Positions 18,661 through 40,236 of a DNA stretch of 64,000 nucleotides are shown here, piece by piece. Each line of letters begins with the position of its first letter. Position 1 is the first letter of the stretch. The DNA comes from Hyphomicrobiales bacterium (GTDB lineage Bacteria; Pseudomonadota; Alphaproteobacteria; Rhizobiales; Beijerinckiaceae): assembly GCA_947455995.1 (NCBI GenBank), contig CANGQA010000006.1, forward strand, positions 1 through 64,000. Reading direction: 5' to 3'. A program made the translations under genes and the position numbers. The notes below the pieces were generated by a model. The model was not told where the DNA came from, ran no database searches, and saw nothing but the letters and a program-made list of their open reading frames with translations.

Positions 18661-20826
18661 ATGGCTGAGCGGTCCTTTAAGGAAGAAGTGAAGTCTCTCA
18701 GGCTCGGTGCAGGTGAAGAATTCCACGGAGAAGGAATTCTCGCCATCACCAAGGCCCTGCTTGAATCCGGCGTGTCCTATGTCGGCGGCTATCAGGGCGC
18801 ACCCATCTCGCATCTGATGGACGTACTGGCTGATGCAGAAGATGTCCTGAACTCGCTTGACGTTCATTTTGAATCAAGTGCTTCCGAAGCCACCGCAGCC
18901 GCCATGCTTGCCGCTTCGGTCAACTATCCCTTGCGCGGTGCGGTGACATTCAAATCAACGGTCGGAACCAATGTTGCCTCGGATGCGCTTGCCAATCTGG
19001 CTTCCGGTGGGGTGACGGGTGGCGCCCTGATCATCGTCGGAGAGGATTACGGCGAAGGCTCTTCCATCATGCAGGAGCGCAGCCACGCTTTCGCTATGAA
19101 AAGTCAGATCTGGCTGATGGACCCACGTCCCAATCTCCCCAAAATTGTCGACTGTGTCCGCAAGGGTTTCGAACTGTCGGAGGCCAGCAACACACCGGTG
19201 ATGCTGGAAGTGCGGATCAGAACCTGCCATGTGACCGGACAATTTACGGCAAGTGATAATATCCGCTCGGCCTTCACCCTCAAGGATGCGCTCGAAAATC
19301 CGGTGCGCGACACCAATCGCATCGTACTCCCACCGGCCAGCTATCTGCACGAGAAGGAAAAGCTCGAAGTGCGCTGGCCCGCCGCCACACAGTTCATCCG
19401 GGATCACAAGCTGAATGAATTTTTTGATGGGGACCTCAATGACATCGGCATTGTCATGCAAGGCGGCATGTACAATACCACTTTGCGTGCATTGGAATTG
19501 GCAGGCTTGGCCGATCCGTTCGGCAATACACGCGTGCCGCTTTATGTCCTGAATGTTACCTATCCGCTGGTCGATGAAGAGTTGATAGGCTTCACCGCAG
19601 GCAAGAAGGCGATCATGATCGTCGAGGAAGGTGCCCCCGAATATATCGAACAAACAGTGGCAACACTGTTGCGGCGCGCCGACATCCAGACGAAAATCCA
19701 TGGCAAAGATATGCTGCCCATGGGTGGCGAATATACGGGCCTCGTCCTGAAAGCAGGTGTGGGACAATTCATCCAGACCTATCACCCCGAACTGGTGGCC
19801 GCTGCACCACTCAACAGTGGCGATAACCGTCTGAAATCGGCACTGGCTGCGCTTGACGGACAAGTGCATGGCCGCCCGCCTTCCTTCTGCACAGGCTGTC
19901 CGGAGCGCCCTATTTTTACTGCAATGAAACTGGTGGAACGGGAATTGGGGGCCCATCACGTGGCTTGCGATATCGGCTGCCACCTGTTCTCGATTCTTCC
20001 GCCGTTCAATATCGGCTCGACGACCATGGGCTATGGTTTGGGCGGAGCCAGCGCATCAGCATTCAACATCAAGGGCGAGAACAAAGCCTCCAAACGCGCG
20101 ATCTCGATCATGGGCGATGGTGGCTTCTGGCATAACGGATTGTTATCGTCGGTCGGCAATGCGGTGTTCAACAAATCAGACAATGTCATGATCATTGTCG
20201 ACAATGGCTATTCCGCAGCAACCGGCGGGCAGGATATCTTGTCCTCCCACCACAAGCACGATACCCGCTCAACCCAAAATTCGATTGAAAAAGCCGTGCG
20301 CGGCGTTGGTGTCGAGTGGGTCCATACCTTAACGCGCACCTATGATCTCAAGGCCATGATCCGTACCCTTAAAGAGGCCCTAACCAGCACGGAGCCGGGA
20401 CCGAAGGTCATTGTCGCGCAATCCGAATGTATGCTGAACAAGCAACGGCGCGAGCGACCCTTGCTTAACAAAGCCATCCAGGACGGCAAGCGCGTTGTGC
20501 GTGACCGTTTCGGTGTTGATCCCGACACCTGCACGGGCGACCATTCCTGCATCCGGTTGTCGGGCTGCCCTTCGCTCACCCTAGCCCCCAACCCCAATCC
20601 TCTGCGCCGGGAACCGGTGACAAAAGTCATCAATTCCTGTGTCGGTTGTGGCCATTGCGGCGAGGTCAGCCACGCTGCGGTGTTATGCCCCTCTTTCTAC
20701 AAGGCCTCCATCATCAATAATCCGGACCGCAACGATACGCGCAAACAAAAGTGGCGGCAGCGGGTGATCGGCTTCCTGCAACGCCGCCACGCCCGCACTC
20801 TTGCCTCCAATGCGGCAGGTCACTGA
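18661..20826 (+). CDS. Indolepyruvate:ferredoxin oxidoreductase-type alpha subunit
   Basis: A 721-residue thiamine-diphosphate enzyme subunit that would oxidatively decarboxylate an arylpyruvate or other 2-oxoacid to its acyl-CoA. The N-terminal pyrimidine-binding domain has GYQGAPISHLMD at about 41. The TPP motif starts at MGDGGFWHNGLL and ends at IIVDNGYSAATGG (about 485-520). The C-terminus carries a ferredoxin domain with cysteines in CTGDHSCIRLSGCPS and CVGCGHCGEVSHAAVLCP, fit for [4Fe-4S] clusters. It is followed after three bases by the beta subunit. In archaea IorA acts on indolepyruvate; here aromatic 2-oxoacid specificity is inferred. Such enzymes are oxygen-tolerant in aerobic proteobacteria. 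Confidence 0.87.
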   Translation: MAERSFKEEVKSLRLGAGEEFHGEGILAITKALLESGVSYVGGYQGAPISHLMDVLADAEDVLNSLDVHFESSASEATAAAMLAASVNYPLRGAVTFKSTVGTNVASDALANLASGGVTGGALIIVGEDYGEGSSIMQERSHAFAMKSQIWLMDPRPNLPKIVDCVRKGFELSEASNTPVMLEVRIRTCHVTGQFTASDNIRSAFTLKDALENPVRDTNRIVLPPASYLHEKEKLEVRWPAATQFIRDHKLNEFFDGDLNDIGIVMQGGMYNTTLRALELAGLADPFGNTRVPLYVLNVTYPLVDEELIGFTAGKKAIMIVEEGAPEYIEQTVATLLRRADIQTKIHGKDMLPMGGEYTGLVLKAGVGQFIQTYHPELVAAAPLNSGDNRLKSALAALDGQVHGRPPSFCTGCPERPIFTAMKLVERELGAHHVACDIGCHLFSILPPFNIGSTTMGYGLGGASASAFNIKGENKASKRAISIMGDGGFWHNGLLSSVGNAVFNKSDNVMIIVDNGYSAATGGQDILSSHHKHDTRSTQNSIEKAVRGVGVEWVHTLTRTYDLKAMIRTLKEALTSTEPGPKVIVAQSECMLNKQRRERPLLNKAIQDGKRVVRDRFGVDPDTCTGDHSCIRLSGCPSLTLAPNPNPLRREPVTKVINSCVGCGHCGEVSHAAVLCPSFYKASIINNPDRNDTRKQKWRQRVIGFLQRRHARTLASNAAGH

Positions 20827-20829
20827 CTC

Positions 20830-22374
20830 ATGAACCCACACGCATCCCAATCCGCAACCTCGATACCGGTCCGCTCGATCCGCATCGCCATTTTGGCGAT
20901 GGGAGGGGAAGGCGGCGGCGTGTTGGCCAACTGGCTGATCGACATGGCGCGTGCCCATGGTTACACCGCACAGATGACCTCGGTGCCGGGTGTTGCGCAG
21001 CGCACCGGAGCGACGATCTATTATATCGAGATGTTTCCCGTGGCCCATATCGGCGCGGGCCAGCAACCCGTATTGGCCTTGATGCCGGTGCCCGGCGATG
21101 TCGATATCGTGCTGGCCTCCGAATTGATGGAAGCAGGGCGAGCCATCCAGCGCGGTTTTGTGACGCCTGACCGCACAAGCCTGATTGCCTCCTCGCATCG
21201 GGTGTTCTCGATGACCGAACGCATAGCCATGGCAGACGGGCGGGTCGACGAACAGGCCCTCCTCACCGCCTGTCGGACTGCGGCCAACCGGTTTATCTCG
21301 TTTGATATGATGCGGATGGCAGAGCAAAGCGGCAGCGTTATTTCTGCCGTTATGTTTGGTGCGCTGTCGGGGGCGGGCTTGCTGCCGTTTGACCGTCAGG
21401 CCTATGAAGATACGATCCGCGAAGGCGGGATCGGCGTCCAGGCCTCGCTGCGCGCGTTTAACGCCGGTTTTTCCGCAGCATCCGGCGACCTGATCACCCC
21501 GCCTTCTGAGCTGGCACGACCCGCCAAACCAACACCATTCGAAGCCCTGCACCGCCAATCGCGCGAGCAGTTTCCGTTGCAGGCGCAAGAGCTGATTGGT
21601 GCGGGTATCGACCAGTGTCTGGATTGGCAAGATCCGGCCTATGCCCGCCTCTATCTCGAACGGCTACAGCCCTTTGCCGCATTCGATCAGGCCCGTGGCG
21701 ATAGCGCGTATACATTATTACTGGAAGTGGCACGGCAACTGGCTTTGACCATGAGCTATGAAGATACGATCCGCGTGGCCGATTTGAAAATTCGCAGCAG
21801 TCGCTTTGAACGGGTGGCTGAGGAGGTCGGATTAAAAGACGGACAGCTTATGGAAATCCGCGAATATCTGCATCCGCGCCTGCAAGAAATTGTCGAAACC
21901 CTCCCCGCTTTTTTAGGCCGTTTCATCGTCACAACAGGCTGGCTCAAAAGCCTGATCGAGCGGTTGACCAGCGAGGGCAAGACGGTCGAAACCACCTCGA
22001 TCCGTGGCTTCGTCATGTTGTATCTGGTGGCCTCATTGCGGCGCTGGCGGCGGTCGAATTTGCGATATGCCTATGAGCAAAAAACCATCCAGCACTGGCT
22101 TGATCAGGTCATGGAAACGGCCAAGCGTGATTATGGCTTGGCTATCGAGCTGGCCGAATTGCGTGGCCTTGTCAAAGGCTATGGCGATACGCATGCGCGC
22201 GGCACCGACAATTTCAACCGTATATGCGCGATCATTCCAGAACTTGAAGGCCCGCAAGCCAGCCAAACTGTGATGGCTTTGCGCAAAGCCGCCAATGCTG
22301 ATGATACCGGCAAGGCCTTGGATGCGCTGCTCATTCCACTTCACAAGCAATATCATCACCAGGAACGAACTTGA
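20830..22374 (+). CDS. Indolepyruvate oxidoreductase beta subunit with DUF6537-type C-terminal extension
   Basis: A 514-residue protein. The first about 200 residues are the gamma/IorB-type domain, with a nucleotide-like AILAMGGEGGGVLANWL and the usual VPGVAQRTGATIYYIEM. The remaining about 300 residues, including DPAYARLYLERLQPF and the helical tail, match the long extension found in fused IorAB enzymes of aerobic proteobacteria. Archaeal IorB is only about 200 residues. Here the two halves are separate genes rather than the usual fusion of about 1,150 residues. It works with the preceding alpha subunit to bind CoA and accept the acyl group. Confidence 0.83.
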   Translation: MNPHASQSATSIPVRSIRIAILAMGGEGGGVLANWLIDMARAHGYTAQMTSVPGVAQRTGATIYYIEMFPVAHIGAGQQPVLALMPVPGDVDIVLASELMEAGRAIQRGFVTPDRTSLIASSHRVFSMTERIAMADGRVDEQALLTACRTAANRFISFDMMRMAEQSGSVISAVMFGALSGAGLLPFDRQAYEDTIREGGIGVQASLRAFNAGFSAASGDLITPPSELARPAKPTPFEALHRQSREQFPLQAQELIGAGIDQCLDWQDPAYARLYLERLQPFAAFDQARGDSAYTLLLEVARQLALTMSYEDTIRVADLKIRSSRFERVAEEVGLKDGQLMEIREYLHPRLQEIVETLPAFLGRFIVTTGWLKSLIERLTSEGKTVETTSIRGFVMLYLVASLRRWRRSNLRYAYEQKTIQHWLDQVMETAKRDYGLAIELAELRGLVKGYGDTHARGTDNFNRICAIIPELEGPQASQTVMALRKAANADDTGKALDALLIPLHKQYHHQERT

Positions 22375-29334: not shown

Positions 29335-30066
29335 TCAAATGGTCAACGTTCCGACGCTTGCACCACCGCAGACATAAAGTGTCTGTCCGGTGATAAAGCC
29401 CGCATCAGGAGATGCAAAAAAACTGACGGCATTGGCGACGTCTGACACCTCGCCCAAACGCTTGACAGGAATGGCCTGTGCCAGAGCCTGCTCGCGCGCG
29501 CTGCCCGCCGCTATGATCTCATGGAACATGTCGGTGGCACGGATCGGGCCCGGTGCAACCATGTTGACCGTAATGCCATCGGAGGCAAGCTCCAAGGCCC
29601 AAGTCCGCCCCATACCGATCAACCCTGCTTTGGTGGCCGAATAGGCGGTACGCGTACCCGCGCCCAAAGCAGCCCGAGACGAGATCAGCACAACACGGCC
29701 AAATTGGTGCTGGCGCATCCCAGGCAATACAGCCTTGAGCAGGATCAGCGCTGTCCCCAGATGCAATTGGGTCAGATCGAGCAGATCCGAGGCAGGCGTA
29801 TCATCGACCGGATTGGGGCGTATCACGCCGGCATTATGTACGAGATAGCCCACATGATGATCACGCGCGATCTCGCTCGCCAGATGTGAGGTGGCCGCAC
29901 TATCGAGCAAATCGACTTGAAAAGGGATCAAGCGGTCATGATGGATCGAAGGAGGCTGACGGTCGAGGGATAGCACGGTCAATCCTCGCGCCAGCAGTGT
30001 ACCGACGATCGCTGCACCGATACCGGTACTGCCTCCTGTGACAAGGGCTGTTTGGGTCACACTCAT
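29335..30066 (-). CDS. Short-chain dehydrogenase/reductase (SDR)
   Basis: A 243-residue classical SDR. Cofactor binding is shown by TGGSTGIGAA near residue 11 and by LVHNAGV. The catalytic set is complete: S in LISSRAALG, then YSATK with tyrosine and lysine. The arginine and lysine pattern around residue 36 (LDRQPP) suggests NAD preference but is not decisive. It is the last gene of operon B, with ATGA overlap to the upstream cyclase. It may oxidise a 3-hydroxyacyl-CoA or a cis-dihydrodiol produced by the Rieske dioxygenase. The Rieske/SDR pairing supports the latter but does not prove it. Confidence 0.9.
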   Translation of the reverse strand: MSVTQTALVTGGSTGIGAAIVGTLLARGLTVLSLDRQPPSIHHDRLIPFQVDLLDSAATSHLASEIARDHHVGYLVHNAGVIRPNPVDDTPASDLLDLTQLHLGTALILLKAVLPGMRQHQFGRVVLISSRAALGAGTRTAYSATKAGLIGMGRTWALELASDGITVNMVAPGPIRATDMFHEIIAAGSAREQALAQAIPVKRLGEVSDVANAVSFFASPDAGFITGQTLYVCGGASVGTLTI

Positions 30067-30857
30067 CGCCCATCCCCCATTGTGGCCACCAATGCCAGCA
30101 CCCGCAATGGACTACCGGAACCCTGACGAATTTTCAGCGGAGCAGCAACAATCACCACGCCGGTCGCAGGCAGTTGATCGAGATTGGTCAGACATTGGAG
30201 ACCGTAACGCCCTTTGCCGTGCATGTAGAAATGGGCCGGATAAGGCGGATTGAAATGATGGGCTTGGCCTGCATCGGTCCCGATGGTTTCGGTGCCGAAG
30301 CCCAGCACATCGCGCTCCTCAACCAGCCAGCGCACCGCCTCGGGCGCAGGACCCGGCGTATGGGCGCCGTCCTCGCGCAATCCGGCAAAATCGGCATAGG
30401 ATTTTTTCGACCAATCGGTGCGCAACAACACCCAGCTGCGGGCGGGAATGCGCCCGTATTGGGTCTCCCATGCCAGCAGATCATCAATCTTTAGCGTGAA
30501 ATCGGCATCCCCTGCCGATTGCACCGAGCAATCGATGACCACGGCGGGTGCGATGAAATGATGCGGTGCAATTGTATCCACCGCATTGTCAGGCAAATCT
30601 TTACCCGACACCCAATGGATCGGCGCGTCGAAATGGGTGCCTGTATGCTCGCCCATGGTGAAATTATTCCAGTACCAAGCCGGACCACGCGCATCATAGC
30701 GCGACACCTCCTCAAGCCTGAACGGTGCGCATTGTCCAAATTCCGGCGGCAATGCAATAGTCGGGAAATCCGGTGTCAATGTCTGCGTCAGATCGATCAC
30801 ACGCACCGCACCGGATGCCACGGCTTGGGCAAATGCAAGAAGATCGGAAGGGCTCAT
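30063..30857 (-). CDS. Cyclase-family metal-dependent hydrolase, copy 2
   Basis: A 264-residue PF04199 hydrolase with the metal motif HTGTHFDAPIHW near residue 76. It is clearly paralogous to the operon A protein at 17825-18619. The two share length, domain extent and many blocks (GPAWYWNN, VDT, SWVL, LVEERD, GTDAGQA, LTNLDQLP versus LCNLDQLP). The start has AAAGGA upstream. The paired copies in two convergent operons argue that both operons serve one pathway. Hydrolysis of an N-formyl or cyclic amide intermediate is inferred from kynurenine formamidase and isatin hydrolase, which share this fold. Confidence 0.88.
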   Translation of the reverse strand: MSPSDLLAFAQAVASGAVRVIDLTQTLTPDFPTIALPPEFGQCAPFRLEEVSRYDARGPAWYWNNFTMGEHTGTHFDAPIHWVSGKDLPDNAVDTIAPHHFIAPAVVIDCSVQSAGDADFTLKIDDLLAWETQYGRIPARSWVLLRTDWSKKSYADFAGLREDGAHTPGPAPEAVRWLVEERDVLGFGTETIGTDAGQAHHFNPPYPAHFYMHGKGRYGLQCLTNLDQLPATGVVIVAAPLKIRQGSGSPLRVLALVATMGDGR

Positions 30858-30883: not shown

Positions 30884-32128
30884 TCAGCCTTCAGCCAATT
30901 CACGTTCAAGCGCTTTGGGATTGGCAGCCAGGCGCTCGCGGATGTCGTTGGCGATATCACCGACAAACACATCCTCCAGCCCTTGTTTAAGGGCAGTGAC
31001 CACCGCTTTGGCGAGTGCAGAAGGGGCCAGTTTGGGTGGCGGAACGGTTTGGAACCATTCTGTCTCCAAAGGACCGAAAAAGGCATTGAGCACTTTGACG
31101 CCCCCGGGGCGCAATTCGGCTCGAAGGCATTGCGCCGCCGACAAACATGCTGCCTCAGCTGCTGAATGAGCCCCGAAAGCAGGCCAGTTCATCAGGGCGT
31201 GGACCGACAGCAGATTGACAAAGGCCGTAGCGCTACTTTGCCCATCTGCACCGCGGAAACGCAAAGCCGGACCGAAAGATTGCGCCAGACGCATCAGGCC
31301 GAAATAACGCACGTCCATTTCGTCGCGTGCTTCAGTCAGGCCAGCACGTCCGAGAATGCCACCTGAACGCACATGTTCAGCGGTGTTGACAAGAATGTCG
31401 ATCCTCCCGCCATTCTGTGCTGCCAGATCGGCAACCGACTGGCTGTCTGTCACGTCCAACGGCACGATTTCGACCCCCGCCAACTTGGCTAGACTGTCCA
31501 TACCAGCAAAGGGTTTCCATGGATGAGCAATGCCGACAAAAACGATCGAGGCCCCCGCCTCCGAAAAAGCCTTGGCCATCGCCTGTCCAACCGAAGAGCG
31601 GCCGTCGGTAATCAGCACGCGCCGGAATTGAGGATCGCAGGTCATCTCGCGCAGGATAGGATCGGCTTCCATAGAGGGCGTCTCCAGTGCAGGCATAGCG
31701 ACCATGACGGCCGCACCGCTTTTATCAAGCTTCAGGGATAGGGTGACCCGCTCGCCTTCCTTCGTGTCCCCATGCAAATGGGCAATCACCAAGGGACCGG
31801 AATCCAGCTGCACGGTGCCTACACGCCAAGGAGTCCGTTCGCGGAAATAGGGATCCGTCGAAATCCTTACAGTTGTTTCCACAACCAGCCGCCCGCCAGG
31901 GCTTACATCCTTGAAGGGGAGTTGCGCACCCAGACAGAACGGGCAGGCATCCCGCGGGGGATAGATGGTTTTACTGCATTCGTCACAGACTTGCAGGGCA
32001 AAACGTCCCTGGGCGGCAGCCAGTGTCAGACCATGCGCGGTACGGCTGCGCTGGCCGTGCGGCAACAACGGCAGGCGGGTGCGCTCTAGTGGATTTTTCC
32101 GTTTGGGACGGATCAGCGGCTTGCTCAT
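30884..32128 (-). CDS. Zn-ribbon/OB-fold (DUF35-type) protein fused to a degenerate SDR domain
   Basis: A 414-residue two-domain protein. The N-terminal part has a zinc ribbon (C48, C51, C62, C65) and an OB fold (about 75-150), the acyl-CoA-binding partner type that complexes with thiolase-like enzymes. From about residue 168 an SDR fold follows, but key residues are lost. The cofactor motif reads TDGRSSVG instead of TGxxxGIG, the NNAG motif reads VNTAEH, and the catalytic YxxxK positions hold H321 and E325. It is therefore probably not an active dehydrogenase. ATG 32128 overlaps the thiolase-like stop. Function is likely structural or regulatory within a thiolase complex. Confidence 0.8.
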   Translation of the reverse strand: MSKPLIRPKRKNPLERTRLPLLPHGQRSRTAHGLTLAAAQGRFALQVCDECSKTIYPPRDACPFCLGAQLPFKDVSPGGRLVVETTVRISTDPYFRERTPWRVGTVQLDSGPLVIAHLHGDTKEGERVTLSLKLDKSGAAVMVAMPALETPSMEADPILREMTCDPQFRRVLITDGRSSVGQAMAKAFSEAGASIVFVGIAHPWKPFAGMDSLAKLAGVEIVPLDVTDSQSVADLAAQNGGRIDILVNTAEHVRSGGILGRAGLTEARDEMDVRYFGLMRLAQSFGPALRFRGADGQSSATAFVNLLSVHALMNWPAFGAHSAAEAACLSAAQCLRAELRPGGVKVLNAFFGPLETEWFQTVPPPKLAPSALAKAVVTALKQGLEDVFVGDIANDIRERLAANPKALERELAEG

Positions 32129-33309
32129 GAGGCCCTCGCAAGAATGGCGGCACACGAGGACAGGCCACGATCATAATTGATCATACCGAAGCCCGAGACC
32201 AGCCCCAATTTGGCATGTGGCACCGGTGTGCCCAGAGCTGTATCAGTCAAATGCCGGATGGCTTCCACCAAGCCCAGAAACCCTCCAGCCGCCCCTGCTT
32301 GGCCGACTGAGAGTTGACCGCCCGATGTATTGTGCGGGAAAGAGCCGTCATTGGTCAGGCTATGGCTACGCACAAAATCCGGTCCCTCGCCTTTTTTACA
32401 AAAGCCGAGATCCTCGAACTGCATCATCGATATCACGGGATAATCATCATAGGTCTCGACGAAATCAACGGCATCGGCAGTCACACCCGCCATGGCCCAG
32501 AGATCATCAGCATCCATCGCCCAGCCGCCCCTGATCTGCACCGGATCATCGGGAAAAGCATTATGCCGCTCGATGGTCGACAATATCCGGACGGTTTTCA
32601 ATCCCAACGACCGGGCGGTATCCTCGTGGCAGACCAGAAAGGCCTCCGCTCCGGCGCATGGCATGACACAATCGAAAAGATGGATCGGATCAGCAATCGG
32701 ACGGGCCGCCAGATAGGCATCAAGCGTCAGTTTTTGTTTCATCAAGGCCAGGGGATGACCAAGCGCATTGTCACGCTGGGCTACGCAAATCTTGCCGAAA
32801 TCCTCGCGTGTCGCACCAAACATATTCATGTAGTTTTTTGTGATCAGCGCAAAGCTGGCATTGGGCCCGCCCGAGCCGTAGGGATAGACCGCATCCTGAG
32901 CAAATCGCGAAAAGGTCGAAAGGGTTTTGCGAAAGGAATCGACATGATTTGTATCGGCAGCCACACAGGCCACAATGTCTGCATCCCCTGCCTGCACCGC
33001 CCGTGCCGCCCGCCGCAACGCGACCACCGCACTGGCTCCGCCCAATGGAATGTGATCGAGCCAACGCGGACACAGACCGAGGTGCTGTGTCAACCCGATC
33101 GCCGTATCGGGTCCGGCGGTAAAGCTCGACAAAGCAAAACCATCAAGATCCTTGATCTGCAAACCCGATTGCCGCAGAAGCCCGTGCAAAGCACGACCGA
33201 TCCACCACGCCGCACTCTCCGGCGAAAACCGCGTATAGGGTACTGTCACCGGTGCACAGGCCACGACGGTGTCATAGGATTTGCGAATGGAGCGTGCGGG
33301 AATGGCCAT
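32125..33309 (-). CDS. Thiolase-superfamily protein with non-canonical active site
   Basis: A 394-residue protein of the SCP2/acetyl-CoA acetyltransferase fold (QHLGLCPRW, GDADIVACVAADT, NTSGGQLSVGQAGAAGG). Canonical catalytic positions are changed. The nucleophilic cysteine of NNCATG aligns with G91 in LGGASAVVAL, the usual HDCF is YDDY, and the usual GHPxGATG histidine is glutamine in GQAGAAGG. Thiolases paired with DUF35 proteins do C-C cleavage or formation on acyl-CoAs, and this one sits directly before such a partner. The loss of cysteine and histidine means standard thiolysis is doubtful. Starts at M33309 in TGATG overlap with the ligase stop. Confidence 0.82.
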   Translation of the reverse strand: MAIPARSIRKSYDTVVACAPVTVPYTRFSPESAAWWIGRALHGLLRQSGLQIKDLDGFALSSFTAGPDTAIGLTQHLGLCPRWLDHIPLGGASAVVALRRAARAVQAGDADIVACVAADTNHVDSFRKTLSTFSRFAQDAVYPYGSGGPNASFALITKNYMNMFGATREDFGKICVAQRDNALGHPLALMKQKLTLDAYLAARPIADPIHLFDCVMPCAGAEAFLVCHEDTARSLGLKTVRILSTIERHNAFPDDPVQIRGGWAMDADDLWAMAGVTADAVDFVETYDDYPVISMMQFEDLGFCKKGEGPDFVRSHSLTNDGSFPHNTSGGQLSVGQAGAAGGFLGLVEAIRHLTDTALGTPVPHAKLGLVSGFGMINYDRGLSSCAAILARAS

Positions 33310-34946
33310 CAATGCGTTCCCCGTTTTTTCATGGAGCGGGTATCAAAACAGCCCGCTGTTCCGATAACGCCCGCGACCAGATCCTTCAGGCCACCGCGCT
33401 GGATTTTCTGCGTCGATGTCAGCGGCACCGCAGTCACAAAGCCGACATAGCCCGGTGCCTTGTAATAAGCCAACCGAGACAGGCACCACGCCACAATATC
33501 GGCTGCCAGCTTTTCATCACCCTGATAGCCATCCTCAAGAACCACACAAGCGAAGACCTCGTCACCCCTGACCTGATCGGCCACAGGGGCGACCGCGACC
33601 GATTTCACGGCCTTATGCTGCAACAACACCCCTTCAACCTCGACAGCAGATATATTCTCGCCAGACCGGCGGATCACGTTTTTCTTGCGGTCTATGAAAT
33701 GCAACGAGCCATCGGCCCCGCGCCGAACTACATCGCCGGTATGGAACCAGCCCCCGGCCCATGCCTCTCTCGTCGCCTTCTCGTCTTTCAGATAGGCTCT
33801 AAAAAATCCGTAATGCGGATCATATCCGGAATGGCGCACCAGCAATTCACCAGGGACATTGACAGGCGCCTCCGATCCATCTTCCGCGACCAGCCGGACT
33901 TCAAGTTCATTGGACGGTTTGCCGAAGCAACGTGTGCCGAGATGACGCGGCTCGTGAGAGGCGACAACCACCGCCCCTGCTCCTGTTTCGGTCATTGCCC
34001 ACGCTTCAACCAGCGGAAAGCCGAAGCGGTCCTCGAAGGGGACATGCAAGCCCTGATCAACCCCCGCCCCGAAACCGAAACGAACCGAATGCTCCTTGTC
34101 TTGCGCGCTTTCAGGCGCACCAATCAGCATCGAAGGCATGACGCCGAGATAGTGGACAATCGTCGCCCTGCTTTCGCGCACACTATTCCACCATGAGCGC
34201 GGATGGAAACGGTCGAGCACAATCAAGCAACCACCGGTCATCACCATGGCCATGGCCGAATAGGCCATCGCATTCATGTGGAAAATCGGCAACGGCGTCA
34301 GCATCCTTTCGCAGCCCGCCTGCATCGCGATCAGCCCCCCGATAGTGGCGTACCAATGGCCTGCATAGAGAAAATATTCATTAGGCAAAATACAGCCCTT
34401 GGGCTGGCCTGTGGTGCCGGATGTGTAAAGCAAGGCACATTCACTGTTGATGTCAGGCTGGCCCGAACGTGGTGGTTTTCCGGTCAGCACGGGCGGGAGA
34501 TCGTCAACTCCGTAAAGCGGCAATGTGATATTTTTGGCTTTGGCTGCGACATTCAAATCGTCAACCCGCGATGGCAAAACAAGGGCTGCGACAATCTCGG
34601 AATGACTGATCAGATATTCCAGCTCGGCTGCGCGCAGATCGGGATTGATCGGCACAACCGATACGCCAAGACTATTCAGAGCAAACCAGTGCATAAAAAA
34701 TGATGGCCGGTTTTCGAGCAGCAAACCGACCCGATGCCCATACCCGTAACCAGCCTGCCGATAGGCCTGCTGCAAGCGGACAATCCCGGACTGCGCCACG
34801 CGATAGCTGATATCTCCCGCAGGAATCTCATAGGTCTTAGCTGTCTCCGGCAAGACCGACAGAAATGCGCAGGACGGATAACGGGCCGCTGTCTGCTCGA
34901 AAGCGGCAAACACGGTTGGAACAGATGATGGGAAATGCTGATCCAT
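33309..34946 (-). CDS. AMP-binding acyl-CoA ligase (operon B)
   Basis: A 545-residue ANL-superfamily ligase. It has the P-loop-like LLYTSGTTGQPKG (about residue 175), the motif AWAMTETGAG (about 310), the hinge GWFHTGDVV followed by RKKNVIRRSGENIS, and the catalytic lysine in TSTQKIQRGGLKD. It belongs to the same broad group as the operon A ligase but is a separate, distantly related copy. The start at 34946 shares one base with the dioxygenase small-subunit stop, indicating coupling. It probably activates an aromatic or alkyl acid for CoA-dependent steps with the thiolase-like protein. The substrate is unknown. Confidence 0.88.
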   Translation of the reverse strand: MDQHFPSSVPTVFAAFEQTAARYPSCAFLSVLPETAKTYEIPAGDISYRVAQSGIVRLQQAYRQAGYGYGHRVGLLLENRPSFFMHWFALNSLGVSVVPINPDLRAAELEYLISHSEIVAALVLPSRVDDLNVAAKAKNITLPLYGVDDLPPVLTGKPPRSGQPDINSECALLYTSGTTGQPKGCILPNEYFLYAGHWYATIGGLIAMQAGCERMLTPLPIFHMNAMAYSAMAMVMTGGCLIVLDRFHPRSWWNSVRESRATIVHYLGVMPSMLIGAPESAQDKEHSVRFGFGAGVDQGLHVPFEDRFGFPLVEAWAMTETGAGAVVVASHEPRHLGTRCFGKPSNELEVRLVAEDGSEAPVNVPGELLVRHSGYDPHYGFFRAYLKDEKATREAWAGGWFHTGDVVRRGADGSLHFIDRKKNVIRRSGENISAVEVEGVLLQHKAVKSVAVAPVADQVRGDEVFACVVLEDGYQGDEKLAADIVAWCLSRLAYYKAPGYVGFVTAVPLTSTQKIQRGGLKDLVAGVIGTAGCFDTRSMKKRGTH

Positions 34947-35452
34947 CACATGAACAACTGGATATTGCCGAAGGCCGCATCGCAATTGACGATATCGACA
35001 CGTTTCAATTTGATTTTCAGGCGCCCGTCCTCGACACACAAGGTATGTGTTGCCCAAGCCGCAAATAATTGCTGTTCATCGAACCGTGTTTCAACATAAT
35101 GCATCGGCGTCCATGTCTGATAGAGATTGGCGCTCTCGTTGCGGCTATCGACCTGCGGTGTCTGCAAGACGTGATGGCAACGGCTTTTGGGCTTTTGGGA
35201 AAAGGTCCGATTGCCCTTGAGACGCTCGACACGGATTTTCAGCAGCAGCCTGTCCTCATACATCAAGGAACAAGTCAGGCGGGGATCGGTCTGTCCCCAT
35301 TCCAGCGGCATCCAGTAATGGCCATCCTCACTGAACAGATCGAGCCATTCCTCGAACCGCTGCATATCGATCATACGGGCTTCAGAAACCACGAAATCAA
35401 TCAACTGCTGATCTGTCGGCGGACCGGTGAGACATGAAGCTGGACTATTCAC
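34946..35452 (-). CDS. Aromatic-ring-hydroxylating dioxygenase small (beta) subunit
   Basis: A 168-residue member of the NTF2-like ring-hydroxylating beta subunits. Conserved features include FVVSEARMIDMQRFEEWLDLFSEDGHYWMP near the N-terminus, the RVERLKG segment in the middle and a C-terminal KLKRVDIVNCD. It lies 9 bp after the alpha subunit gene and overlaps the ligase gene. In alpha3-beta3 oxygenases such as benzoate and anthranilate dioxygenase the beta subunit is structural and stabilises the oligomer. No separate ferredoxin gene is present. Confidence 0.9.
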   Translation of the reverse strand: MNSPASCLTGPPTDQQLIDFVVSEARMIDMQRFEEWLDLFSEDGHYWMPLEWGQTDPRLTCSLMYEDRLLLKIRVERLKGNRTFSQKPKSRCHHVLQTPQVDSRNESANLYQTWTPMHYVETRFDEQQLFAAWATHTLCVEDGRLKIKLKRVDIVNCDAAFGNIQLFM

Positions 35453-35461
35453 GATGACACC

Positions 35462-36775
35462 TCACATGCTCATGGTGATAAATTTGGACCAAGCCCGAAA
35501 CTGGTTTCTCATCTGCCATTCGGTCGTGCCATTGGTTTCGGCCGTCACGTCGGGTTTTTCATCCTGGGAATACAACCGCTGGATATTGACCCATTGATTG
35601 GCATCGACATGCAGGCCTTCCTGTGCGCGTTCGTACATTTCAAGATCATCATGCCCGACCACAGATGTCGGAGCGTTGATGAGACGGTTATACATCAAAG
35701 TACGTTCCAGCAGCACATCCGGTGCATCGACAAGCCGGAAAGTCCAGCTTTCCACGAGTGTCTTATTGGCAGAAATCGGCTTGAACAGCCGCAGAAGCTG
35801 GATTGGCCCCTTAATCATTACATTGGGAAAATAGACGGTATTATGCCGATTTTCGTCGAGAATGGCCTTGGCCTTCTCCTCGCCATAGGCCTCGCTCATC
35901 TGCTCGAAATAGCCGGGAATAACCGAATAGTCGGAATGGATGGAATGGCTCACCCCCGTATGCCCATGCCCGTTCGGCCAGACCCGGATTCCCATACCCT
36001 CGAAAAACTCATAGGACGACATAAACGGAGCAAAAATTTCAACCGCCATCGGCTTCTTGGTGCCTTCAGGAGCATTCTTCCAGACATCAATGGCGGTACC
36101 TGCCGAGGATTCATGCGCCACCATAGGATGGCAGGTGTCTGTCTGGTTTTCGACCAGCATTTTCCAATTGCAATTGTGCATGTAACGCAACACGCCACCG
36201 GCGACTTCCAGCCTGCCTGCGGGCGAGCGGTCAACCATATTATCGAGGCTAGAGAGACTATCGGCAAAAAAATCCTCGAAGTCGAGGCCACCATCATTGA
36301 GCTTGGCAAACACGAAACCGCGATAATTGCGGACGTGTTTAACCGGAGTCAGACCCTTGATCGCTTCGCTCTCCTCAAGGCCGGTATTTTCGTATCCTTT
36401 TTTAAGAGGAATAGCGAGGAGACTGCCGTCAAGCTTGAACGACCATGCATGATAGGGACAACGGAAAAACTTGCCCGTATTGCCGCAGGTTTCGGTTGTG
36501 ACTCGCACACCTTTATGCGGGCAGCGGTTGAAAAGCACATGCACCGAGCCATCCCCGTGGCGCACCATCAGAACGGGTTGCGAGCCGATGGTCGTCCCGA
36601 AATAATCGCCTGCATTGGCGATCTGGCTGTCATGACCGACATAGACCCATGTATTGGCGAACAGATGGTCCATTTCGAGCTGGAAGACTTCCTCGTCGAT
36701 ATAGACATCGCGATGCACCTCGCGCTCACGAACCAAACCTCTGACTGCTTCGACATTGCCTTTGTAGCGTGACAT
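35462..36775 (-). CDS. Rieske aromatic-ring-hydroxylating dioxygenase large (alpha) subunit
   Basis: A 437-residue oxygenase. The Rieske [2Fe-2S] ligands are C85, H87, C106 and H109 (RCPHKG and RCPYHAW). The mononuclear iron site is ENQTDTCHPMVAH, giving H216 and H221, with D213 as the bridging residue between the centres. Members add oxygen across an aromatic ring. The closest type visible is the benzoate/anthranilate/indole-acetate group rather than toluene/biphenyl dioxygenases. ATG 36775 is preceded by GGGGA; an in-frame ATG at 36790 adds five residues. Electrons probably come from the reductase encoded upstream. Substrate is unknown. Confidence 0.93.
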   Translation of the reverse strand: MSRYKGNVEAVRGLVREREVHRDVYIDEEVFQLEMDHLFANTWVYVGHDSQIANAGDYFGTTIGSQPVLMVRHGDGSVHVLFNRCPHKGVRVTTETCGNTGKFFRCPYHAWSFKLDGSLLAIPLKKGYENTGLEESEAIKGLTPVKHVRNYRGFVFAKLNDGGLDFEDFFADSLSSLDNMVDRSPAGRLEVAGGVLRYMHNCNWKMLVENQTDTCHPMVAHESSAGTAIDVWKNAPEGTKKPMAVEIFAPFMSSYEFFEGMGIRVWPNGHGHTGVSHSIHSDYSVIPGYFEQMSEAYGEEKAKAILDENRHNTVYFPNVMIKGPIQLLRLFKPISANKTLVESWTFRLVDAPDVLLERTLMYNRLINAPTSVVGHDDLEMYERAQEGLHVDANQWVNIQRLYSQDEKPDVTAETNGTTEWQMRNQFRAWSKFITMSM

Positions 36776-36792
36776 GTGTCCATCCCCCATGT

Positions 36793-37764
36793 TCAGAGAT
36801 CCAGCACCAGCTCATTCGAATGGGCCCGCGAAATGCAAATCTGGATCAAGCGACCAGCGGCTTTCTCTGCGTCAGACAAGATAAAATCGCGATGGTCGGG
36901 CACACCCGCGACCACCCCCACCTGACAGATCCCACAATCACCACGCTGGCAGTCATAGATCGGATCTTCACCCGCCCCTATCAGCACATCCAGAATGGTT
37001 TTATCGGCGGGCACCAGATAGCGTTTGCCCGAGGATTGAAGCACAATCTCGAAAGGCTTGTCGCCGGCCTGCGCCTCTGGCGCACTGAATATCTCAAAAT
37101 GCAGACGATGCTCGGCCCAGCCCAGTTGTTTGGCAGCCGCAATCCCTGCCTGAATCATTGGCAGCGGTCCGCACAGATAAAGCGGCTCTTCATGAACCAG
37201 CGAGGCCATCAACCCGCCAAGTTCAAACTGGCCTAACTCCGCATCGCAATGCACACGCAACGCCTCTGACGCCAAGGCCTGCACCTCGTCCAAAAAGGCC
37301 AGCTGGTCACGGTTGCGAACGGCATAGATCAGCCGATAAGGCCGCTTTGCGGCTTGCAGTTCCGCAGCCATCGATATCAATGGCGTGATCCCGATGCCGC
37401 CTGCAACCAAAACTGTTTCATGAGGCGAAGAGGCAAGCGCGAAATGGTTGCGCGGGCCGCTGGCATTGACCCGATCCCCCACCTGCAAGCCGTGCATGAA
37501 ACGCGAGCCCCCCCCGCTGTGCTCCGACAGCCGGACACCGAGCAGATAGGTTGTCGGAGCGCGTGTAGTGGTGGCACCGGCCATCGTATTGACCAGTGAA
37601 TAGGAGCGTTCCGATCCATCGGGGAGCGCAATATTGATATGGGCACCTGCCTGCCAGTCCGGCAAGGCCGAATGATCAGGAGCAGCCAGCGTGATGGCCC
37701 TGATCACCGGCGTGAGCGTGCGCACATCGCTGACAACCAGACTGTGTATGGGGGCGCTACTCAT
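36793..37764 (-). CDS. Phthalate-dioxygenase/VanB-type oxygenase reductase
   Basis: A 323-residue flavin- and [2Fe-2S]-protein that carries electrons from NAD(P)H to the Rieske oxygenase. The N-terminal flavin domain has ERSYSLVN (FMN/FAD binding). The NAD-binding domain has VAGGIGITPLISM at about 120-132. The C-terminal plant-type ferredoxin has cysteines in YDCQRGDCGICQVG with the fourth further on. FMN-type reductases of this order (flavin, NAD, ferredoxin) supply class IA oxygenases without an extra ferredoxin, which fits the absence of one here. ATG 37764 has GAAGG upstream. It is the first gene of operon B. Confidence 0.92.
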   Translation of the reverse strand: MSSAPIHSLVVSDVRTLTPVIRAITLAAPDHSALPDWQAGAHINIALPDGSERSYSLVNTMAGATTTRAPTTYLLGVRLSEHSGGGSRFMHGLQVGDRVNASGPRNHFALASSPHETVLVAGGIGITPLISMAAELQAAKRPYRLIYAVRNRDQLAFLDEVQALASEALRVHCDAELGQFELGGLMASLVHEEPLYLCGPLPMIQAGIAAAKQLGWAEHRLHFEIFSAPEAQAGDKPFEIVLQSSGKRYLVPADKTILDVLIGAGEDPIYDCQRGDCGICQVGVVAGVPDHRDFILSDAEKAAGRLIQICISRAHSNELVLDL

Positions 37765-37862
37765 GGTCTGGCCTTCATGCTCATCGGTGGCTTCACCCAT
37801 TTCGCACCGAGCAGGGTGAACCGCGCCATCGCGTCATACCCCGAAGGTGATTTTATACTCCC

Positions 37863-38082: not shown

Positions 38083-38169
38083 TGAAGTAATTTCGTATGA
38101 TCGACAGCACCGGACATGGATCCTCCATGAATGGCTTCATGTTGCATCTTGGGCGGGGTCGTCGGGTTT

Positions 38170-38973
38170 ATGCGCATCCTTTGGCAAAGTTTTGTAGACC
38201 TCGCGCAGAATGCGCCTTATCTCGAAGTCTTGTCACGCTATCTCAACGAGATTGCTGCCCCCAACACGGTCGTCGATGTGGTCGGGATCACGCCGCCCGA
38301 CCGCGATTTTGGACGACTGACCGAATTCCGCTGCGCCGCTCAAACCATAGATCACTGCATCGATGCCGCCGATCAGGGCTATGACGCCTTCGTCATCGGA
38401 CATTTTCAGGATCCTGGCCTTTACGAGGCCCGCTCTGCGGTGCGAATACCTGTGATCGGAACGGGCGAAGCCACCCTACACTATGCTGCACAGATGGGCC
38501 GCCGTATTGCGATGATCTCGATCGATCCGGTTTTCGAGGTCTGGCATTACGAGCAGGCAGAACGTTACGGGCTTTCCAGCCGGATCAGTGGCGTGACCGG
38601 ACTGGGCTTTGCCGCGCAGGATTTTAACGATGCCTTTGCCGGAGACGAAACTGCTTTCGAGCGGATGCGGGCTGTTTTCCATGACAAAGCCAAGCCACTG
38701 GTCGATGCGGGCGCGGATGTGGTGATCCCCGCTGGCGTATTGCCCGCTTTGCTGCTGTGCCGTTTGCGCGGCTACACCATTGGCCATGCTCCGGTGATCA
38801 ATTCGGCCTCTGTTACGCTAAAAACTGCAGAAATGGCGGTCGCCTTACATCAGCTGGACGGACTTGAACCCAGTCGTGGCCCCAGTTTCGCGCTTGCGCC
38901 CGACCGCGCCATTGCCGATTTTCGCCATTTCGTCGCTTACGGGGTGCAAAATAAAGGTCCTCGAGATGGCTAA
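38170..38973 (+). CDS. Asp/Glu/hydantoin racemase-like protein without catalytic cysteines
   Basis: A 267-residue protein of the cysteine racemase fold. The usual two catalytic cysteines in hydantoin racemases (ACFGDPGL and LGCAGM) are replaced. The first reads GHFQDPGL with H78 at the cysteine place, and the second reads IPAGVLP with A188. IPVIGTGEATLHYA keeps the phosphate- or carboxylate-binding GxGEA pattern. It cannot act by the two-cysteine mechanism and may be an isomerase, lyase or decarboxylase with another mechanism. ATG 38170 is chosen because MRILWQSF is the typical N-terminus. It leads operon C, ahead of a Liv-type importer. Confidence 0.75.
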   Translation: MRILWQSFVDLAQNAPYLEVLSRYLNEIAAPNTVVDVVGITPPDRDFGRLTEFRCAAQTIDHCIDAADQGYDAFVIGHFQDPGLYEARSAVRIPVIGTGEATLHYAAQMGRRIAMISIDPVFEVWHYEQAERYGLSSRISGVTGLGFAAQDFNDAFAGDETAFERMRAVFHDKAKPLVDAGADVVIPAGVLPALLLCRLRGYTIGHAPVINSASVTLKTAEMAVALHQLDGLEPSRGPSFALAPDRAIADFRHFVAYGVQNKGPRDG

Positions 38974-39087: not shown

Positions 39088-40236
39088 ATGAAAACAAGCC
39101 TTCGTACACTCGTTGCCGTTGCCGGCACGCTGCTTTCCGGCCTGCCCGCACATGCGGATATTACTGTGGGCTTTGTTACGGCCTTGAGCGGCCCCGGTGC
39201 CTCGATCGGGATTCCCTATGGCAAAGGCATAGCTGCTGCGTTCGATTATATTTCTTCCGTCAGTGGCGAGAAGATCAAATTGATCCAGCTTGATGACGGC
39301 TCCGACCCTTCCACCGCAGCACGTAATGCCCGCAAGCTGGTTGAAGAAGAAAAAGTCGACATTCTGATCGGCACCGCGCAGGCGCCTGCCTCCATTGCCA
39401 TGATGGCTGTGTCAGCCGAATTGAAAGTGCCGATGATCTCGGTATCACCGGTGGTTGTCCCCCCCACAACAGACCGTTGGGGTGTGGCAGTCCCGCAATT
39501 ACCAAGCTTGATGTTCAAGGCCGTGACCGACCGTATGGTTAAAGACGGCATCAAGACAGTCGGCTATATCGGCTTCTCGGATGCCTGGGGTGATCTGGTC
39601 TATTCCGGTGCAAAAGCAGCCGAAGACCGTGGTGAAATGAAGGTTGTTGCCAATGAACGCTATGCCCGCACCGATACATCGGTAACCGGACAGGTGCTGA
39701 AGATTGTGGCGGCCAAGCCCGATGCGATCATGAACGGCGGTTCGGCCACCCAAGGTGCCTTGCCTTTACTGGCTTTGACCGAGCGCGGGTATAAAGGCAA
39801 GATTTACGGCACACCAGCTTTGCTGAATGCCGATTTCATCCGGGTTGGCGGCAAATCGGCCGAGGGAATTCTGGTGTCTGCCGGTCCCGTGATTGTGGCA
39901 GAACAGTTGCCCGATAGCCACTTCAGCAAAAAGCCTTCAATGGCATTCCGCGCCAGCTACCAGAAGGTCAACGGCAGCGAAACCACCGACGGTTTTTCAG
40001 CCTATTCATTTGATGCATGGTTGATCTTTGTCGATTCTGCCAAGCGTGCCATGGCGAAAGCAAAGCCCGGCACACCGGAATTCCGTACGGTGCTGAAAGA
40101 TGAAATCTTCGCTACCAAGGAACTGGCAGGCGTGCATGCCATCTATAACTTCAAGCCTGATTCCGCCTATGGTGTTGACGAGCGCAGCCTCGTGCTGGTC
40201 CGTCTGACAAATGGCGTGTGGCGCTACGAGCCATAA
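39088..40236 (+). CDS. Branched-chain amino-acid-type (Liv) ABC substrate-binding protein, operon C
   Basis: A 382-residue periplasmic binding protein of the LivJ/LivK fold with a Sec signal peptide (KTSLRTLVAVAGTLLSGLPAHA, cleavage after AHA). The mature start ITVGFVTALSGPGASIGIPYGKGI and the later GYIGFSDAWGD and GGSATQGALPLLAL segments are family-typical. Many members import aromatic acids rather than branched-chain amino acids. A strong stem-loop follows the stop codon. The ATG is preceded by GGAGGGG. It is the second gene of operon C and feeds the permeases downstream. Confidence 0.93.
   Translation: MKTSLRTLVAVAGTLLSGLPAHADITVGFVTALSGPGASIGIPYGKGIAAAFDYISSVSGEKIKLIQLDDGSDPSTAARNARKLVEEEKVDILIGTAQAPASIAMMAVSAELKVPMISVSPVVVPPTTDRWGVAVPQLPSLMFKAVTDRMVKDGIKTVGYIGFSDAWGDLVYSGAKAAEDRGEMKVVANERYARTDTSVTGQVLKIVAAKPDAIMNGGSATQGALPLLALTERGYKGKIYGTPALLNADFIRVGGKSAEGILVSAGPVIVAEQLPDSHFSKKPSMAFRASYQKVNGSETTDGFSAYSFDAWLIFVDSAKRAMAKAKPGTPEFRTVLKDEIFATKELAGVHAIYNFKPDSAYGVDERSLVLVRLTNGVWRYEP

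Follow-up and report, generated by a model that had tools for sequence, protein, structure and literature searches.

A DUF35 protein fused to a degenerate SDR domain in the iad auxin degradation locus as the candidate partner of a putative retro-aldolase

ChsH2 consists of a MaoC domain devoid of catalytic residues and a DUF35 domain that binds Ltp2, and Shy likewise combines MaoC with a DUF35 domain, to which Sal binds; in Shy the zinc-ribbon/OB-fold (Zn/OB) half comes first (PMC11321319, as far as the parts at hand describe these proteins). BbsCD of anaerobic toluene degradation is a heterotetrameric SDR with inactive subunits, and the thiolase BbsAB belongs to the same CoA-ester pathway, according to the available portions of the literature. 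The third point of reference is the iad locus of Variovorax paradoxus CL014, which has its gene order, neighboring enzymes and pathway in common with the locus analyzed here (PMC12633357). The CL014 IadH protein is called an alcohol dehydrogenase from its annotation, and the sections of that paper available to us mention neither a Zn/OB half nor the loss of SDR residues; its likeness to the protein described below is drawn from gene order and neighbors.

ChsH2 is the closest architectural precedent for IadH. In the ChsH2/Ltp2 and Shy/Sal pairs, as in IadH, DUF35 is fused to a second domain, and the partially available descriptions indicate that this domain is catalytically dead in ChsH2 also; the Zn/OB half is placed first in IadH as it is in Shy. 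There, the fusion is bound to a thiolase-fold retro-aldolase, whereas here the connection is gene adjacency. IadH further differs from ChsH2 and Shy in that its fused domain is of the SDR type and its likely substrate an oxindole rather than a steroid. The Bbs system resembles IadH in its inactive SDR subunit, its CoA-ester pathway and its Zn-finger thiolase, but it is made of separate proteins and, as far as it is described in the sources at hand, performs a true thiolase reaction. By analogy, IadH appears to unite the ChsH2 and BbsCD ideas in one chain. Among the open-access matches listed, we found no literature on a DUF35-SDR fusion or on a retro-aldol step in iad.

The fusion gene and its locus

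We analyzed a stretch of 64,000 nucleotides (the window) from a Hyphomicrobiales bacterium (assembly GCA_947455995.1, contig CANGQA010000006.1, positions 1 to 64,000). From position 37800 down to 29335, its genes follow the order iadC-D-E-F-G-H-I-J, which is the published iad order as given in the available parts of PMC12633357, and the fusion gene lies between iadG and iadI, as it does there (Table 1). IadD matches PDB entry 9O71 (IadDE of Variovorax paradoxus CL014) at 1.8e-186, and IadI matches isatin hydrolase A (5nnb) at 7.7e-118 but kynurenine formamidase only at 5e-6; its HxGTHxDxPxH sequence is the metal motif described for isatin hydrolases in the sources consulted in part. Gene order and the matches of IadD and IadI identify the fusion gene, on sequence grounds, as iadH of the iad pathway for indole-3-acetate (auxin).

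Table 1. Genes of the iad locus in the window
Feature	Coordinates	Strand	Description
iadH	30884..32128	(-)	414 aa; ATG start; zinc ribbon + OB fold + pseudo-SDR half
iadG	32125..33309	(-)	thiolase-fold protein without thiolase catalytic residues; 4-base overlap (ATGA) with iadH
iadI	30063..30857	(-)	cyclase family, isatin hydrolase-like; HxGTHxDxPxH metal motif
iadJ	29335..30066	(-)	SDR; TGxxxGxG and YSATK intact
iadF	33309..34946	(-)	AMP-forming acyl-CoA ligase; ATG at 34946 (earlier TTG start of the ORF tool: 35057)
iadE	34946..35452	(-)	small subunit of ring-hydroxylating oxygenase
iadD	35462..36790	(-)	large subunit, Rieske oxygenase; near full-length match to PDB 9O71
iadC	36793..37800	(-)	oxidoreductase/ferredoxin-type reductase
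periplasmic binding protein, IadK-like	39088..40236	(+)	top PDB match 7ylt (8.3e-140)

We take 7ylt to be IadK2, going by the neighboring code 7yls. Elsewhere in the window, two genes at 18661-22374, with TPP_enzyme_C and POR + DUF6537 domains, resemble an indolepyruvate ferredoxin oxidoreductase pair. Plasmids of Shinella and Pukyongiella also carry genes of that name close to the fusion, and the stretch could represent a more extensive island of indole-acid genes. An Asp/Glu racemase-family gene (38131-38973) has a relative in 20 of 55 fusion loci, 12 of the 20 being loci without an IadD match.

In IadH, Pfam recognizes zf-ChsH2 at residues 37-70 (7.4e-9) and OB_ChsH2_C at 74-130 (6.3e-9), the zinc ribbon and OB fold of ChsH2/Shy-type DUF35 partners, with C48, C51, C62 and C65 as the zinc-ribbon cysteines. 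The second half, about 168-412, matches adh_short_C2 (178-363, 6.8e-19) and adh_short (170-362, 2.1e-17). The top NCBIfam match of the protein is the SDR family PRK08264 (1.5e-46, below the family's own cutoff), and because this match spans 170-413, the original prediction of SDR-like sequence over about 240 residues holds. The same prediction had placed H321 and E325 at the Tyr and Lys of the YxxxK site and called the cofactor motif broken; both were confirmed, with S308 retained, TGxxxGxG reading T174-D175-G-R-S-S179-V-G181 (D175 and S179 at two of the three glycines) and NNAG reading N248-T-A-E251, in which the Gly is replaced. The protein is thus devoid of the TGxxxGxG motif and of the Tyr and Lys of the Ser-Tyr-Lys triad that mark a catalytic SDR. 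An AlphaFold2 model of IadH from a 10-row alignment had a mean pLDDT of 52.2, too poor for reading the fold.

Among 397 genomes of the window's order, 22 carry the fusion, counting matches that start before residue 60; 33 of the 397 have any match at 1e-25, the remaining 11 being SDR-only. The fusion also occurs in 34 of 72,556 plasmid records (cutoff 1e-40). In the family of genome G733, which lies outside the window's class, 23 of 299 genomes have it, at 51-56% identity. No relatives of the fusion were found in the viral contigs scanned. Counting identical sequences once, we compiled 76 distinct fusions, 54 from fusion loci and 22 from the search of the G733 family; these are not 76 independent events, because many rows are close relatives. 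Three partial loci (L047, L062 and L063) lie outside the 54 and 76 fusion rows, L062 being included among the IadG rows, and a later find, L126, is outside the 76.

All four zinc cysteines are present in 76 of 76 fusions. The first cofactor Gly is absent from every one of them (Asp in 68, Asn in 8) and the second from 73. Tyr and Lys occur together in a single fusion, which still has Asp at position 175, so that homologues keeping YxxxK, which would have suggested local decay, are nearly absent. The exact H/E pair is found in just 5 of the 76: the window gene and three close relatives of it account for four, and the fifth is the distant L089; other fusions carry F/K, Y/Q, Y/E, F/N and further combinations at these sites. 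Decay of the catalytic site is uneven, since 29 of the 76 keep Lys with Tyr changed to Phe and one keeps both residues. Within the G733 family, 22 of the 23 rows read Phe/Lys and 1 reads Tyr/Lys, and Lys is lost in 46 of the 53 fusions outside that family. Of eight SDR-only relatives, all drawn from one search, every one has Lys and seven have Tyr, and the first Gly is present in all 7 rows that can be read there. These columns were left out when a quick tree was built; on it we count 10 changes at the Tyr site, 3 at the Lys site and 2 at the Gly site, one of the last from an SDR-only row with a gap, and Gly loss parts the fusions from the SDR-only rows. Its branches are long and many of its forks weak, 29 of 82 inner branches being open.

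Judged by its residues, the SDR half of IadH is therefore a family-wide pseudoenzyme, and its retention as such, already proposed for the window gene, is borne out across the 76 fusions. The arrangement had also been considered possibly undescribed. It is not rare, and it corresponds to iadH of a published locus; what stands of that claim is the dead SDR half, of which we noticed no mention in the accessible parts of PMC12633357.

IadG residues and the side-chain removal step

IadG accompanies the fusion in all 53 loci with enough upstream sequence (of 54 loci), so that the expected pairing of the fusion with a thiolase-fold gene is general; its partner had been taken for a thiolase, and on this point the residues disagree, resembling those of the retro-aldolases Sal and Ltp2. 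The best solved matches of IadG are CtSal (9myr, 1.8e-45, the top PDB match), 4u4e and Ltp2 (6ok1). Compared with the acetyltransferase 7yvy, IadG has Gly at the place of the Cys nucleophile and Gln at that of the GHP histidine. Among 54 IadG rows, position 91 (the thiolase Cys place) is Gly in 53 and Arg in 1, and GQ replaces GHP in all; for locus L067 the row is that of its second pair rather than of the fusion neighbor (which is also YDDY), and for L069 it is a two-piece match interrupted by a gap close to the Cys position. IadG thus has neither the Cys nucleophile nor the GHP histidine of beta-ketothiolases, and it does have the combination seen in Sal/Ltp2-type enzymes, i.e., no thiolase Cys and the Tyr of a YDxF/Y motif.

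This motif reads Y287-D-D-Y290 in IadG and YDDY in 54 of 54 different rows, unlike YDCY of Sal and YDHF of Ltp2. According to the parts of the literature at hand, CtSal depends on both the Tyr and the Cys of YDCY, and replacement of Sal Cys304 by Ala, Ser or His abolishes activity. IadG has the known acid residue of neither Sal (Cys of YDCY) nor Ltp2 (Tyr344): Asp takes the former place in 54 of 54 rows, and Gln, as in Sal, takes that of Tyr344. Asp at the third place of YDxY was absent from the descriptions of Sal/Ltp2-type aldolases examined, as far as these were available. Q332 and Q337 are likewise invariant (54/54) and, by spacing, would correspond to Gln347 and Gln352 of CtSal. By its residues, IadG thus resembles a Sal/Ltp2-like retro-aldolase and not a thiolase.

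The locus identity, the family-wide residue loss, the absence of thiolase residues from IadG and the constraint on both halves of IadH (see below), all read from the sequences, lead us to propose that IadG and IadH probably form a redox-neutral retro-aldolase that converts dioxindole-3-acetyl-CoA to isatin and acetyl-CoA, with the Zn/OB half as the aldolase partner and the SDR half as a pseudoenzyme. The ligase IadF would make dioxindole-3-acetyl-CoA, and the Zn/OB half of IadH would dock on IadG, by homology with the DUF35 domains of ChsH2 and Shy on Ltp2 and Sal. IadG would then cleave the thioester by a retro-aldol reaction, with Tyr287 deprotonating the tertiary hydroxyl and Asp289, at the place of Cys304 in Sal, protonating the acetyl-CoA enolate; the isatin released would be hydrolyzed by IadI. 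The SDR half may be kept for structure, as a scaffold, or for ligand handling, as a retooled pocket.

The substrate of Ltp2 carries a tertiary beta-hydroxyl, as does dioxindole-acetyl-CoA. A tertiary beta-hydroxyl does not permit oxidation to a ketoacyl-CoA, so retro-aldol cleavage to isatin would be the direct route. Because the hydroxyl-bearing carbon has no hydrogen, a dehydrogenase could not act at the side-chain step, and a redox-neutral step without a possible dehydrogenase would make the SDR half a pseudoenzyme. Several published observations bear on this proposal. Variovorax without iadH makes significantly less anthranilate, and C10H9NO4 (dioxindole-acetate) accumulates, an accumulation that also follows the loss of iadF, iadG or iadI (PMC12633357, available parts). 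Cultures of V. paradoxus CL14 contained isatin (as reported in the accessible part of PMC9613470), and in a Pseudomonas with a cluster also named iad a product was assigned as isatin (PMC8383072, likewise in part). The iadI deletion accumulates C8H7NO2 and not isatin (C8H5NO2), and side-chain removal was termed reductive in the sections at hand (Jiang et al., PMC12633357). The retro-aldol proposal must therefore suppose a later reduction of isatin, which IadJ or a host reductase, for example, might perform to account for C8H7NO2.

In the reading stated in the available parts of PMC12633357, IadG acts as a ketothiolase, IadH acts as an alcohol dehydrogenase, and the acetyl side chain is removed reductively by these two and IadF. 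It accounts for the buildup of C8H7NO2 both in the iadI deletion and in a strain with iadCDEFGH, J and K2 but no iadI, and the Lys and Ser of the SDR site are kept in the 23 G733-family rows. However, the roles of IadG and IadH were assigned from annotation, as far as that source tells. The loss of the first cofactor Gly from every fusion, with Tyr and Lys together missing from 75 of 76, argues against a dehydrogenase, and the missing Cys and His of IadG argue against a ketothiolase; on chemical reasoning, the beta-carbon of dioxindole-acetyl-CoA offers no hydrogen to oxidize. We regard this reading as unlikely, and from these residues the role published for IadH is probably wrong.

The SDR half and its retention

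R254 (75/76), R292 (76/76), W358 (73/76) and Q360 (75/76) are near-invariant in the fusions, and none of them is the consensus of SDR-only relatives. Of the columns conserved in the latter, 4/9 are kept in the cofactor loop, 1/5 in the second-strand segment, 12/15 in helix aE, 5/7 in the rest of aF and 5/5 in the PG strand, the segments being named from motif positions. It is conceivable, although we put it forward tentatively, that a rebuilt SDR pocket (R254, W358 and Q360) holds the oxindole or isatin moiety and passes it between IadG and IadI, making IadG-IadH(-IadI) a retro-aldolase that channels this moiety and works with a Tyr-Asp dyad; no description of such a dyad for this fold was seen in the literature examined, part of which was available. 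W358 is lost in 3 of 4 loci without a local iadI (L064, L065 and L090). A tie between the two losses was considered and dropped, as isatin-hydrolase homologues occur elsewhere in those genomes or records; in L083, one lies beside a second copy of the fusion.

Where the downstream sequence suffices, 45 of 49 fusion loci have IadI; IadD and IadE are found in 22 of 51 loci and IadJ in 19 of 48. Forty-five loci can be read on both sides, and among these iadJ accompanies iadD in 19 of 19 cases and is present in 0 of 26 loci that lack iadD. As IadJ tracks IadD and IadG and IadI are near-universal, G-H-I seems to form a module that can be separated from C-D-E-J, and the SDR half appears independent of the neighboring IadJ. 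This pattern bears on the idea that the pseudo-SDR half pairs with the catalytic SDR IadJ, in the manner of the inactive subunits of BbsCD, and so tethers a dehydrogenase to IadG, which would be compatible with IadG being a retro-aldolase. The gene iadJ lies two genes downstream of iadH with its motifs intact, and the putative dimer helices aE and aF of IadH keep most of the SDR-conserved columns (see above). Against this pairing, IadJ is missing from loci without iadD, and a BLAST search of the local stretch found another SDR gene in 7 of the 29 loci without iadD and none in 22, a count that leaves room for a distant partner. Most IadH loci without iadD thus differ from BbsCD in having no co-encoded SDR partner; moreover, the published work, as far as available, assigns IadJ to an earlier pathway step. 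On balance we consider such pairing improbable.

Five relatives of IadG, all with YDDY, are neighbored by a Zn/OB protein or frame lacking the SDR half (the second pair of L067, L127, L128, L154 and L155), suggesting a basic partner made of the Zn/OB half, to which the SDR half was added. In Sulfitobacter sp. THAF37 (L067, 9529-11129), the second IadG-like protein, 64% identical to that of the window, is paired with a stand-alone Zn/OB protein of 135 aa and shares its cluster with a full iad set. In L154 (genome G183) and L155 (G181), the IadG relative and the Zn/OB frame are accompanied by an IadF-like ligase, and no isatin hydrolase is present in the stretch; these are perhaps aldolases for another CoA ester. 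On an Azospirillum thermophilum plasmid (L069), where the IadG match is in two pieces, iadG and iadH are both unannotated, possibly as a damaged copy.

The SDR half could also be passive baggage of an old fusion that is slowly decaying, again compatibly with a retro-aldolase role of IadG. The five partners without an SDR half fit this idea, as do the drift of the catalytic Tyr site and a shortened fusion of 366 aa in Paroceanicella profunda (L126, 10164-11264), whose SDR half is strongly degenerate; that gene adjoins an IadG (YDDY) and a ligase gene, and no isatin hydrolase match was found in the plasmid. Selection on the two halves argues against it. We computed dN/dS by the Nei-Gojobori method with our own script for pairs with dS between 0.15 and 1.0 (n = 861) and obtained medians of 0.44 for the Zn/OB half and 0.46 for the SDR half (maxima, 0.96 and 0.93), the SDR value being lower in 454 of 861 pairs. 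Between the window gene and its two nearest relatives, in L044 and L046, the ratios were 0.08 and 0.10 for the Zn/OB half and 0.06 and 0.07 for the SDR half. Both halves of IadH are under purifying selection; the higher ratios in distant than in close pairs may reflect weaker constraint or synonymous saturation. The near-invariance of R254, R292, W358 and Q360, which depart from the SDR-only consensus, also speaks against mere baggage, to which we give little credence. Local decay of the window gene is ruled out by the residue loss across 76 fusions together with the purifying selection on both halves. A scaffold role for the SDR half, as the original prediction had it, is plausible by analogy with ChsH2; the other role it named, a CoA-ester shuttle, is hypothetical.

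A true beta-ketothiolase route, in which 2-formamidobenzoylacetyl-CoA is thiolysed and the product then deformylated by IadI, has a precedent in the older route postulated for Bradyrhizobium, agrees with the annotation of IadI as a kynurenine formamidase (PMC12633357) and involves an acid that by our calculation is an isomer of C10H9NO4, but it is highly improbable given the missing thiolase residues of IadG, the far closer match of IadI to isatin hydrolase, the demonstration that C8H7NO3 is not N-formylanthranilate (PMC12633357) and the loss of one deuterium from C10H9NO4, as expected for dioxindole-acetate, the literature points being taken from the available parts of their sources.

Meaning for auxin degradation

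Removal of the auxin side chain in iad was assigned from annotation, according to the sections of PMC12633357 at hand, and the sequences argue that the "ketothiolase" and the "alcohol dehydrogenase" are neither. Retro-aldol cleavage by IadG with IadH as its partner would be a simple alternative without a redox step. IadH would then join ChsH2 as an example of an inactive enzyme domain carried on a DUF35 aldolase partner, and this reading would bear on the engineering of auxin-degrading root bacteria, which carry these genes.
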